From positions 62,001 to 126,000 of the forward strand of contig NZ_JADHDV010000007.1 in assembly GCF_016820515.1 (NCBI RefSeq): a stretch of 64,000 nucleotides of DNA, read 5' to 3'. Shown here in pieces: positions 5,395-41,314 of the stretch (position 1 is the stretch's first letter; every line of letters begins with the position of its first letter). Below the pieces are notes generated by a model. It was not told the origin of the DNA. It made no database searches and saw only the letters and a program-made list of their open reading frames with translations. The stretch is from Pseudoxanthomonas beigongshangi. Its GTDB lineage: Bacteria > Pseudomonadota > Gammaproteobacteria > Xanthomonadales > Xanthomonadaceae. A program made the position numbers and the translations under genes.

Positions 5395-5434
5395 GCCGCC
5401 ATTGTACCCGGCCGTACCCCTCCGCCGCCCGGCC

Positions 5435-5587
5435 GTAGAGCGGAGCTTGCTCCGCTACCCCGAGGCCACCCCCGTAGAGCGGAGCTCGCTCCGCTGCTCC
5501 AAGGCCACCCACGTAGAGCGGAGCTTGCTCCGCTGCTCTTGTGGCGAGAACCGAGAATCAAAAGCAGCGGAGCAAGCTCCGCTCTAC
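5435..5587. repeat. Cluster of four GTAG-type REP palindromes (SMAG-like)
   Basis: Four near-identical 22-bp palindromes lie between uup and the CdsA-like gene. Three face forward at 5435-5456, 5474-5495 and 5513-5534, and one is inverted at 5566-5587. Each begins GTAG followed by the hairpin AGCGGAGC / GCTCCGCT. The third and fourth face each other and could fold into one long hairpin. The terminal GTAG and inverted pairing are hallmarks of REP elements mobilised by RAYT (TnpA-REP) proteins; SMAG repeats of Stenotrophomonas look the same. No RAYT gene is in the window. The inverted copy overlaps the stop codon of the CdsA-like gene. Confidence 0.92.
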
Positions 5588-38792: not shown

Positions 38793-39188
38793 ATGAGCGA
38801 GATTCCCGGCGATCTCAAATTCCTGAAGTCCCACGAGTGGGCCCGCGCTGAAGGCGATCGCCGCGTCACCGTCGGCATTTCCGATCACGCGCAGGGCCTG
38901 CTCGGCGACCTCGTCTATGTCGAACTGCCGAACGTCGGCGACCGCGTCGAGGCAGGCAACGCCAGCGCCGTGGTCGAGTCGGTGAAGGCGGCGTCCGACG
39001 TGTACAGCCCGGTCACCGGCAAGGTGATCGAGGTCAACGCGGCGCTGGCCGACAAGCCCGAAACCATCAACGAGGATGCCTATGGCGAAGGCTGGATCTT
39101 CGTGGTGGAAGCCGAGGAGCCGGAGCAGCTCAACGAGCTGCTGTCCCCCGACGACTACGCCGAGCTGCTGGAAGACGAGGACCACTGA
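38793..39188 (+). CDS. gcvH: Glycine cleavage system H protein
   Basis: The lipoyl-carrying protein that shuttles the aminomethyl group between P, T and L proteins. The 131-residue protein contains the lipoylation site in [14 protein letters not shown] with Lys near residue 65, and [15 protein letters not shown] and [19 protein letters not shown]. Length is typical (about 130). It follows gcvT on the same strand, and no gcvP is in the window. The start is preceded by CGGAGTAG and a terminator follows at 39214. Confidence 0.96.
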
Positions 39189-39213
39189 GTCCGGCATCTT
39201 CACCCAGCCTGGA

Positions 39214-39243
39214 CCGGCCGCCTCGCGCGGCCGGTTTTTTTTT
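39214..39243 (+). terminator. Rho-independent terminator of gcvH
   Basis: CCGGCCGC/GCGGCCGG forms an 8-bp stem with a 5-nt loop (39214-39234), followed by nine T residues (39235-39243). It begins 25 bp after the gcvH stop. Confidence 0.93.
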
Positions 39244-39820
39244 GCCTCCCCGTCCGGCAACGTCGTGACGGACGGGAGGCGCGATGCAGGTGAATCGGGA
39301 GCGCGGCGTCCGGAGCCGGGTGACGGAATTCCGTCGATGGTTTTCTTCCATGCCTCGCCGCGGGCGATCCGCTCGTCGACGCGAACGGTGCCGACGACGG
39401 TGCCGGACACGACCGGCGATGCCGCCAGACGGATGCCGGCATGCATCGTCGGCCATCGATCCGACGTCGTCGAAGTGTCGTCGGACGACCGCGAAGACGG
39501 TCGCGAAAGCGGATTTTTTTTGCGCAGATCCGCGCAATCGGGCTTGTGCGCCGCCCCAAACCGGACCGCCCAGCGGAAAAATTTTTAGGTGCCGTTTAGC
39601 CCTCCGACGGCAGCTCCGCGATGCTGTCGCGGGGAGCGCGAATCACGATCCGGATTCCGCATCAGGCAAATGCATGTCAAAAAAGCGCTCGTTTTTGCGC
39701 TTTTTTTTTCTTGCCGCTTCAGCGCCGACGTTGCTGGCGGGATCCGTTACCGCGATTTCCCATCCTCGTTCGCCGCCATCCCGGCGGGCAGGCGGCGGCG
39801 GCGGCCCCAAAAAAATTTCG
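39244..39820. other. Non-coding intergenic stretch, structured and gene-free
   Basis: About 580 bp without a convincing gene. Directly after the gcvH T-tract a large inverted repeat, GCCTCCCCGTCCG to CGGACGGGAGGC (39244-39280), could fold. Further on are CGACC/GGTCG (39486-39503) with a T8 run 11 bp later, and GCGGAT/ATCCGC (39509-39533). Homopolymer A and T runs are much denser than elsewhere. Open frames here show no coding bias, no credible ribosome sites and no recognisable protein family. Confidence 0.6.
39679..39709. terminator. Possible bidirectional terminator
   Basis: AAAAAAGCGC (39679-39688) and GCGCTTTTTT (39697-39706) form a stem around an 8-nt loop, with T9 on the plus strand and A6 on the other side, so it could act in either direction. 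The GC part is only 4 bp, so strength is uncertain. No annotated gene ends here. Confidence 0.55.
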
Positions 39821-39828
39821 CCGAGGTG

Positions 39829-39857
39829 TTGACACGTCCAAAAACCGTGATTAGGTT
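39829..39857 (+). promoter_or_regulatory. Strong sigma-70 promoter ahead of the histone-like gene
   Basis: A perfect TTGACA at 39829-39834 and TAGGTT at 39852-39857 with 17-bp spacing. Expected start near 39864, about 350 nt upstream of the histone-like gene ATG. It is a strong promoter by consensus. Confidence 0.7.
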
Positions 39858-39863
39858 TCGCGC

Positions 39864-40036
39864 AGCAGAGAGTGCTGCGGAAGCGAGTGAGTCGGATCAA
39901 TACGACAGCGCGAGTGACAACAAGGCCAATCGTCCCAGCCCAGGCAGCGGCGGACGCAGGGCTCGCTTCCCCCGAAAAAATGACCAGCACCATCCATTCC
40001 GCACCCGTGTCGCCCGGCGACCCGGGTGTTTTCGTA
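39864..40036 (+). ncRNA. Candidate small RNA or attenuated leader
   Basis: A transcript from the promoter at 39829 would meet a terminator at about 170 nt. CACCCG-T-GTCGC (40002-40013) pairs with GCGAC-C-CGGGTG (40017-40028), 11 bp with one mismatch, followed by TTTTCGTATTT. The region has no protein with a good start. Between 40044 and 40175 several further hairpins follow (GGGGACC/GGTCCC, GCGGG/CCCGC, CTGCC/GGCAG) before the histone-like gene. Either a stand-alone sRNA or a long attenuator leader is possible. It does not match 6S or tmRNA that I can recognise. Confidence 0.45.
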
Positions 40037-40215
40037 TTTGTAGGGGACCACGTCAGAAGGGTCCCGACAAAAGAATCCGGTTCAACGCGCCTGGCGCGTC
40101 GACGGTTGCCTGCGGGTCCGACTCCCGCGGCCAATTCCGCAACTGGGCCTGCCTTCGGGCAGAGGTGTCGTACCCCGATGTACCCAATCCAAGTTCACTG
40201 ACGAGGAGCCATCAC

Positions 40216-40665
40216 ATGGCAATGAAGAAAGCTGCTAAGAAGAAACCTGCCAAGAAGGCCGCCAAGAAGGCGACCAAGAAGGCAGCCGCCAAGAAGACCG
40301 TGAAGAAGGCCGCCAAGAAGGCTGCCAAGAAGGTCACCAAGAAGGCCGCCAAGAAGACCGTGAAGAAGGCTGCCAAGAAGGTTGCCAAGAAGCCGGCCAA
40401 GAAGGCTGCGAAGAAGGCAGCGAAGAAGACTGCGAAGAAGGCCACCAAGAAGGCTGCCAAGAAGGTCGCCCGCAAGCCTGCGAAGAAGGCTGCGAAGAAG
40501 GCCACCAAGAAGGCTGCCAAGAAGACCGTGAAGAAGGCCGCCAAGAAGGCTGCCAAGAAGCCGGCCAAGAAGGCTGCGAAGAAGGCCGCCAAGAAGCCTG
40601 CCCGCAAGTCCAAGAAGAAAGCGGCTCCGGTCGCGCTGCCGGCCACCCCGGCTCCGCTGATCTAA
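40216..40665 (+). CDS. Histone H1-like Lys/Ala-rich DNA-binding protein
   Basis: A 149-residue extremely basic protein, composed of repeats of the KKAAKK and KKPAKK type with Thr, Val and Pro spacers, ending in a neutral tail PVALPATPAPLI. It resembles eukaryotic histone H1 C-terminal tails and bacterial relatives such as AlgP/HctA-like proteins. It lacks a globular domain. The ATG at 40216 has GAGGAG 9-14 bp upstream. Its 5' leader is about 350 nt and structured, and a strong terminator follows. Likely binds DNA or RNA non-specifically; its biological role is uncertain. A signature of Xanthomonadaceae and some pseudomonads. Confidence 0.92.
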   Translation: MAMKKAAKKKPAKKAAKKATKKAAAKKTVKKAAKKAAKKVTKKAAKKTVKKAAKKVAKKPAKKAAKKAAKKTAKKATKKAAKKVARKPAKKAAKKATKKAAKKTVKKAAKKAAKKPAKKAAKKAAKKPARKSKKKAAPVALPATPAPLI

Positions 40666-40694
40666 GCCAAACCCCGATTAGCCGTATCCATCAG

Positions 40695-40733
40695 ACTCTC
40701 TCCCTGTGCCCAGCAGGGGGAGAGTTTTTTTTT
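40695..40733 (+). terminator. Rho-independent terminator of the histone-like gene
   Basis: ACTCTCTCCCTG (40695-40706) and CAGGGGGAGAGT (40714-40725) form a 12-bp stem with one G-U pair, followed by nine T residues. It lies 29 bp after the stop. Confidence 0.94.
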
Positions 40734-40774
40734 GCGCGGGATTAAGCTGGCGGCCGTCGAAGCGGAGGAATGAC

Positions 40775-41314
40775 ATGAAGTTGCTGAAATGGGCCCTGGG
40801 CATCCTGGTCGTGCTGGGCGTGGTGCTGGTGGCCGGAAGCCTGTTGCTGCCGGCGCGCACCCACGTCGAACGTTCCATCACCATCCAGCGGCCGCCGGCG
40901 GAAGTGTTCGCCACCCTCAATTCGTTCCGCCGCTTCAACGAGTGGTCGCCCTGGTTCGCCGCCGATCCGCAGGCCAAGTACACCTACGAAGGCCCCGCCG
41001 AAGGCGTGGGCGCCAGCATGCGCTGGTCCGGCAACCAGGCGGTCGGAACCGGCAGCCAGCGGATCACCGGCAGCCGCGCGCCGGAGCAGGTGATCGTCGC
41101 CCTGGATTTCGGCGGCCATCCCTCCGTCGCCACCTACACGCTGGTGGCCGAGGGCGGCAACGCGACCCGGCTGACCTGGGCCTTCGATACCGAACACGGC
41201 TACAACCCGATATCGCGCTGGTTCGGCCTGCTGTTCGATCGCATGATCGGCGCCGACTACGAGCGTGGCCTGGGCCAGCTCAAGACCGTGCTGGAGCAGG
41301 CGCCCGCGCGCTGA
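40775..41314 (+). CDS. SRPBCC-family (START-like) protein with N-terminal membrane anchor
   Basis: A 179-residue protein starting MKLLKWALGILVVLG at 40775, a membrane anchor or uncleaved signal (residues 5-25). The remaining residues form a polyketide-cyclase/SRPBCC fold: VERSITIQRPPAEVFATLNSF near residue 32 and FNEWSPWFAADPQAKY near 55, followed by RITGSRAPEQVIVALDFG. Such proteins bind hydrophobic ligands; the specific ligand is unknown. The ATG is preceded by GCGGAGGAATGAC. No operon partner is evident. Confidence 0.85.
   Translation: MKLLKWALGILVVLGVVLVAGSLLLPARTHVERSITIQRPPAEVFATLNSFRRFNEWSPWFAADPQAKYTYEGPAEGVGASMRWSGNQAVGTGSQRITGSRAPEQVIVALDFGGHPSVATYTLVAEGGNATRLTWAFDTEHGYNPISRWFGLLFDRMIGADYERGLGQLKTVLEQAPAR

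Follow-up and report, generated by a model that had tools for sequence, protein, structure and literature searches.

The window analysed here is a 64,000-nt stretch of the Pseudoxanthomonas beigongshangi genome, and the segment of interest lies on its forward (+) strand downstream of gcvH. Gene order runs from gcvH (38793-39188, GCV_H) across 640 bp to a promoter, a leader, a 149-aa open reading frame (ORF) and a further ORF at 40774-41314. The 149-aa ORF (40216-40665, +, ATG at 40216; MAMKKAAKKKPAKK...PAPLI) is Lys/Ala-rich and histone-like; neither it nor the ORF at 40774-41314 (179 aa translated) matched a family in Pfam or NCBIfam at E 0.001. Before the ATG, TGACGAGGAG (40199-40208, +) is a conserved stop-plus-Shine-Dalgarno motif serving the histone-like gene, with an anti-Shine-Dalgarno duplex averaging -8.19 kcal/mol in 77 leaders. 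Just 3' of the ORF, a strong terminator-like hairpin of 15 pairs followed by a T-run (40693-40727) suggests a one-gene transcript. On the upstream side, gcvH has a terminator (39211-39237), and the ~580 bp from there to the promoter (39240-39820) hold a terminator-like hairpin, AAAAAAGCGC...GCGCTTTTTT, at 39679-39706 and have no assigned gene. Region-wide, eight terminator-like sites were called compared with 3.6 ± 2.2 expected. The leader itself is present in a single copy in its own genome.

The promoter proposed in a sequence-only reading of this segment, TTGACA/TAGGTT, was found in place: a -35 box at 39829-39834, a 17-nt spacer and a -10 box at 39852-39857. Both belong to a block of the form TTGACA-N5-AAAAA-N-CGTGATTAGGTTTCGC (39829-39861, +) that is near-invariant among relatives, and from which transcription is predicted to start at ~39863-39865. 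A simple promoter scanner called zero promoter-like sites for it because TAGGTT shares only three of six bases with TATAAT. Searched as a 33-bp pattern with up to three mismatches, the block occurred in 191 of 247 family genomes (38 of 54 genera), once per genome and with no hit for the reversed-pattern control among the matches listed; a looser form also occurred once in the genome of origin. The 80 of 117 titles listed for the pattern name Xanthomonas, Stenotrophomonas, Luteimonas, Lysobacter, Pseudoxanthomonas, Vulcaniibacterium, Thermomonas and unclassified relatives.

Independently of the pattern, 69 of 70 loci (L041-L110, some genomes represented twice) fetched with R1, a covariance model built on the second conserved block of the leader (the 3' leader element), carried the promoter block with at most four substitutions, the exception (L086) being a false R1 match. 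Loci L111-L227 were fetched via the exact promoter pattern and are informative on downstream sequence, not on promoter conservation. Across 83 diverse leaders, TTGACA was invariant or nearly so, as nearly was AAAAA-N-CGTGATTAGGTTTCGC, and the bases right after TTGACA were variable; these figures are biased upward because the loci were partly chosen by pattern. An AT-rich, UP-element-like block, AAAAAAATTT, lies upstream of the -35 box (39809-39818, +). In the same 83 leaders the AT fraction was 0.69-0.98 at -20 to -12 relative to TTGACA and mostly 0.1-0.4 in the remainder of the 45 nt upstream. That conservation extends past the two hexamers into the spacer may point to a regulator binding there or to polymerase contacts of an unusual kind.

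The leader is widespread in the family and accompanies the histone-like gene. A BLAST search with 39829-40215 matched 37 of 38 congeneric Pseudoxanthomonas genomes, some in part only, and the 37 aligned leaders shared a promoter with hardly any change, a conserved 5' domain, the terminator hairpin and a conserved block before the ribosome site (a repeat alignment took 27 of the 37). At E values up to 0.01, R1 matched 154 of 247 family genomes (36 of 54 genera) and rarely gave more than one match in a genome, a total that contains at least one false match (L086, inside another gene). When 40 R1 matches were fetched, 39 had a Lys-rich ORF, its product beginning MA[T/M/V/A]KK, 29-128 nt further downstream. 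Phages and viral contigs gave no match. An order-level R1 search of 299 genomes returned four weak matches outside the family (E 6e-4 to 7e-4), which we treated as chance.

Of 226 loci with the promoter, not all of them from distinct genomes, 210 had a called histone-like ORF at 309-488 nt downstream of it. For the remaining 16, it was visible by inspection in four (L140, L149, L166 and L221) and the other 12 loci end too early to judge, so the ORF lies downstream in all 214 loci of sufficient length. One of the loci (L133; JAHREJ010000001.1, promoter at 5403-5435) is labelled Bacillus subtilis SK7B5; since its contig carries a Xanthomonadaceae-type leader and histone-like gene, that assembly is probably mislabelled or contaminated. 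Before counting, loci with at least 230 nt after the promoter were kept (219 of 226, 148 unique), and near-identical rows were removed by thresholds set for each analysis.

The first ~170 nt of the predicted RNA form a 5' domain that folds better than expected, at -67.1 compared with -58.0 kcal/mol for shuffled sequences (z -2.5; 1 of 200 shuffles as good), and the folding energy of the whole leader is near that of shuffles (z -0.93). The earlier description of these ~170 nt as a region without protein went too far, since they are covered by an open frame (GTG 39872 or 39887 to TGA 40199-40201). By folding, a 5' hairpin, CGCAGCA-GAGAG-UGCUGCG (39861-39879, +), represented in other genera by a GCAG/CUGC stem with a loop able to pair downstream, is followed by an RNA domain (39879-39970, +) closed by a helix of GGAAGCGAG (39879-39887) with CUCGCUUCC (39962-39970). 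In a sequence-only alignment of 58 of 74 leaders, an inner helix UCCGCC/GGUGGA was 92.5% paired and the closing GGAAGCG/CGYYUCC 71%; the P. beigongshangi sequence pairs this inner helix in a shifted register (CGUCC/GGACG). Over the whole structure of the domain, this alignment gave 63 double-change cells compared with 40.3 ± 5.9 in shuffles, a count that is not decisive because slid partners also reach 63, and a phylogeny-aware covariation scan found no significant pair in the domain (best E 0.6). Covariation support is weaker here than for the 3' element.

A long-range pairing may join the two ends of this domain. Among 496 window pairs scanned in 48 of 77 leaders, the best was that of the 5' hairpin loop, GACGUUGC, with GCAACGUC just before the terminator (z -5.0). 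With larger windows this pseudoknot-like pairing reached z -3.95 (p 5e-5, 99 leaders), and z -4.1 in the 70 leaders numbered L071 or higher; eight of the 148 unique leaders, in which no domain end was recognised, were left out of the test. Compensating examples include GACGAUGC/GCAUCGUC, CGCUGC/GCAGCG and CCUUGC/GCAAGG. Support comes from outside the genus only, the 26 Pseudoxanthomonas leaders giving p 0.76.

The 5' domain ends at a predicted intrinsic terminator (40001-40039, +), again where it had been placed from the letters alone: a hairpin at 40001-40029 with a stem of 7+5 bp and one internal mismatch, followed by the U-rich tail UUUUCGUAUUU. Hairpins with an energy of at most -15 kcal/mol and U's after them were found in 99 of 141 unique leaders compared with 16 of 141 shuffled ones, and at a cut-off of -8 kcal/mol a terminator was called in 113 compared with 53, leaving 28 of 141 unique leaders without a call. 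Some of these 28 (L080, L096 and L097) retain a hairpin without a U-tract, with promoter and leader still present. The position of the hairpin is tightly fixed: of the 114 best hairpins, 106 have their end between +165 and +200, with quartiles at +174 and +178. Measured from the start of TTTCGC, hairpins of -12 kcal/mol or better that end between +160 and +235 (n = 108) have a median end of +176 (5th-95th percentile +171 to +197), and the predicted RNA is therefore ~170 nt long. The stem sequences vary among genera. Swapping terminator arms between leaders weakened the pairing (cognate -21.7, swapped -15.4 ± 0.39 kcal/mol), a comparison that serves as a positive control only and is circular because the hairpins were selected by fold.

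Beyond the terminator, the 3' leader element (40073-40151, +) comprises two hairpins, H1 (40077-40105) and H2 (40108-40131), and a conserved ACTGGGC (40142-40148). Of 100 leaders, 98 had an R1 match where one was expected; L198 and L200 were missed, and L028 had an extra weak match. These 100 come from 107 loci and include L071-L110, which were R1 matches already. In the resulting fitted alignment (99 rows, the stray L028 match among them), 93.7% of cells were paired and 13 of 17 pairs had changed on both sides. Double-change cells numbered 90 compared with 16.9 ± 3.6 in shuffles; partners slid by one column gave 63 such cells but with only 37.9% of cells paired, and the covariation score was 0.263 compared with 0.079 or less for slid partners. 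As an alignment fitted by R1 leans towards the structure, we tested the arms again in 57 diverse sequences cut as fixed slices, where H1 (z -6.3) and H2 (z -11.0) again stood out and three control pairings did not (p 0.62-0.91).

Compensatory change in the 3' element thus supports a structured cis-regulatory RNA, and the earlier statement that the leader continues structured past the terminator is borne out by covariation among relatives, not by folding energy alone: 40037-40230 has an unremarkable energy (z -0.53), which 58 of 200 shuffles equalled or bettered. Within Pseudoxanthomonas alone covariation of the element is weak, and a phylogeny-aware scan of the MAFFT-aligned core found nothing significant (best E 5.2); like the scan of the 5' domain, it was perhaps limited by its sequence-only alignment. 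In Xanthomonas- and Stenotrophomonas-type leaders (L076, L095) the element begins only a few bases past the hairpin, which leaves little room for a separate promoter. A tRNA or tmRNA reading of the T-arm-like GGGUCCGACUCCC in the element was rejected, as a tRNA/tmRNA search found none and the loops differ in other genera. Across the family, conservation held for the promoter, the hairpin at its fixed distance and the structure downstream; a lack of conserved structure was what the sequence-only reading had said would refute it.

Taken together, the interpretation that we favour, and consider somewhat more probable than all others combined, is that the segment belongs to a cis-acting leader of the histone-like gene, with partial termination within it and a second element near the ribosome site. 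Computational comparison established that the leader is conserved and linked to the gene, that a terminator-like hairpin lies at a fixed place and that the 3' element covaries; we infer from this that the leader is transcribed, that termination is partial and that one or other element regulates. On this account, the segment would be the front half of a ~350-nt structured mRNA leader, conserved across the Xanthomonadaceae/Lysobacteraceae, for a histone-like protein of DNA-binding type. A strong, near-invariant promoter would start the RNA, whose first ~170 nt would form the conserved domain ending at the intrinsic terminator. Some polymerases would stop there, freeing a ~170-nt RNA, and others would continue into the histone mRNA, where the second element (the two hairpins plus ACTGGGC), lying just 5' of the ribosome-binding site, would probably determine how well the mRNA is translated or how stable it is.

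By its sequence, the leader has an intrinsic terminator between promoter and first gene, as an attenuator does. The second attenuator feature, an antiterminator, was not found: pairing of the 5' domain with the two terminator arms was no better for cognate than for non-cognate partners in 65 diverse leaders (p 0.37 and 0.52), in a duplex test that is blind to pairings made of invariant bases. Pairing of the 5' domain with the ribosome site or the core was likewise unsupported (p 0.32 and 0.51). Of ten pairing tests, the nominally significant ones were the terminator's own arms and the terminator 5' arm with the core (p 0.0065), the latter probably due to overlapping windows in short leaders. 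The readthrough control that had been thought plausible from the sequence is supported by no antiterminator pairing, and 28 of the 141 unique leaders give no terminator call at -8 kcal/mol. The best account is a leader that would resemble an attenuator in its working, lacks a detectable antiterminator and fits no RNA family tested.

The segment had originally been described as a small RNA or an attenuator, and it is the attenuator or leader half of that description that survives. A free-standing small RNA gene, in which a trans-acting ~170-nt RNA is the product and the histone-like gene relies for its expression on incidental readthrough or another promoter, is in our estimate doubtful. Such a gene would be a compact unit delimited by a conserved promoter and a terminator-like hairpin, as is seen here, and the C/U-rich conserved 3' end of the 5' domain (CUUCC/CUCC) could act as a seed. 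It would not be expected to be followed by the histone-like gene in all 214 sufficiently long loci, and no separate existence of the unit was found; this linkage wherever sequence sufficed is why we prefer the attenuator or leader reading. The single copy in the genome of origin, the second conserved element 3' of the hairpin and the loss of the U-tract with promoter and leader kept (L080, L096 and L097) also argue against it.

The open frame that spoils the label 'without protein' raises another possibility. A candidate leader frame runs from GTG 39887 (with an in-frame GTG at 39872) to TGA 40199-40201 (39887-40201, +), crosses both the terminator and the 3' element and stops at the histone-gene ribosome site. 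Ribosomes starting at the conserved GTG might cross the terminator, block formation of its hairpin and end at the histone ribosome site, a reading that we judge unlikely; by analogy with pyrBI, translation would then govern readthrough and be coupled to histone translation, which we hold to be similarly improbable. Stop codons are depleted as it predicts: between the 5' domain and the core, 83 diverse leaders have 5 stops in 3195 codons compared with 33/3241 and 22/3222 in the other frames, and 60 shuffles gave 46.0 ± 6.8 in the same frame and region. Depletion persisted when the set was cut to 26 leaders with less than 75% gapped identity to one another (2/1183 compared with 26/2335 in the other frames, p 0.001). 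The frame ends within 60 nt of the ATG in 74 of 83 leaders (in 28 of these at the ribosome-site TGA), spans 60 of 64 called terminators and keeps a single phase of GTG-to-core spacing in 49 of 75 leaders.

Other measures speak against translation. With core and tail counted, stops in the leader show no clear frame difference (50/5546, 60/5602 and 39/5565), and at stricter identity cut-offs the numbers are too few (1, 6 and 5 stops in 13 leaders; 0, 3 and 0 in five). Substitutions in the 5' domain are spread evenly over codon positions (13363/13013/13351), the core has no third-position excess, substitutions between nearest pairs are also even (376/409/380), and GC content by codon position is flat between the 5' domain and the core, compared with 0.73/0.36/0.86 in gcvH. 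No Shine-Dalgarno sequence was found upstream of the GTG (-2.1 compared with -2.5 elsewhere in the leader). Insertions and deletions of 1-2 nt occur often, and where lengths differ the difference is a multiple of three in 11 of 22 and 12 of 24 cases; GTG is replaced by GCG in 6 of 83 leaders; and by chance alone one third of cases would have an open frame in phase with the conserved TGA. The product of the frame matched no Pfam family and gave a single sub-threshold NCBIfam match (E 0.12). Four Pseudoxanthomonas leaders (L031, L033, L034 and L036) have GCG for GTG and a lost or shifted frame, and keep promoter, hairpin and 3' element. A family-wide RNA device in which passing ribosomes, not a peptide or an antiterminator, decide transcription of the histone-like gene is something we would not expect to be borne out; if true, ribosome-decided readthrough would amount to translation-sensed control of chromatin compaction in a bacterium.

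Less probable again is a passive long 5' untranslated region, in which a strong promoter feeds a stable leader that makes the mRNA longer-lived, the hairpins are protective and termination is not regulated. The UP-like AT-rich block with its consensus -35 box, the genera that keep the hairpin without a U-tract (L080, L096 and L097) and the missing antiterminator would all suit it. Against it stand hairpins with U-runs whose spacing hardly varies (quartiles +174 to +178) although their sequence does, and their excess at -15 kcal/mol over shuffles (99 compared with 16 of 141). A chance origin of the leader pattern is unlikely.

We compared the leader with catalogued RNAs and with the literature. 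Rfam 15 gave nothing at gathering thresholds in the 64,000-nt window and nothing in its leader at E values up to 5, so that no match to a described aptamer family, as would mark a riboswitch, was obtained in that search. In 17 relatives searched at E values up to 0.5, the sole overlap with a leader was a sub-threshold, opposite-strand PK-BYV match (E 0.28, L098) at chance level. Downstream of the histone-like gene, one locus (L108, 1995-2156) matched group-II-D1D4-3 at 35.6 bits (cut-off 32; E 0.00088). Small RNAs named for the Xanthomonas group in the available part of PMC12189769 are sX13, asX1 and sRNA-Xcc1; these and sX11 (Rfam) come from the same bacterial family as the leader, and no Rfam sX or sRNA-Xcc1 covariance model matched it. 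The sole sX11-like match in the window, at 21.8 bits (cut-off 70), fell on the gcvH terminator. The available parts of PMC7694677, PMC12189769 and PMC3039613 do not mention the leader, and open-licence full-text literature yielded nothing on it or on control of the histone-like gene; a transcript here may nevertheless have been reported before.

The cis-acting leader that we favour thus looks like an uncatalogued switch setting the amount of a histone-like protein. That a single leader recurs from genus to genus, its promoter hardly changed over 33 bp, implies that histone-like output is tightly constrained. The leader makes bacterial chromatin control open to experiment and is a candidate for a new RNA family.

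Other known systems invite comparison. Leaders of the pyrBI/pyrE type work by coupled transcription-translation attenuation and share with this one a promoter, a leader, an internal intrinsic terminator and an open frame that runs across it and ends near the gene; unlike them, the frame here comes without codon-level evidence of translation or a Shine-Dalgarno sequence, a second covarying RNA element follows downstream and the target is a histone-like gene. Riboswitch and ribosomal-protein leaders have in common with it a conserved domain with an intrinsic terminator behind it and RNA structure at the ribosome site, as well as, in several genera, a pseudoknot-like pairing just before the terminator, but the present leader matched no Rfam family, showed no antiterminator pairing and has a pseudoknot unsupported in its own genus. 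In Chlamydia, the small RNA IhtA represses translation of hctA, which encodes the histone-like HctA/Hc1, through base pairing (PMC4355289, PMC3469542, as far as their available text goes). From that description, both cases would place a bacterial histone-like protein under RNA-level control, which for the leader is the probable reading; whereas IhtA is a separate small RNA, the RNA here is the gene's own leader.
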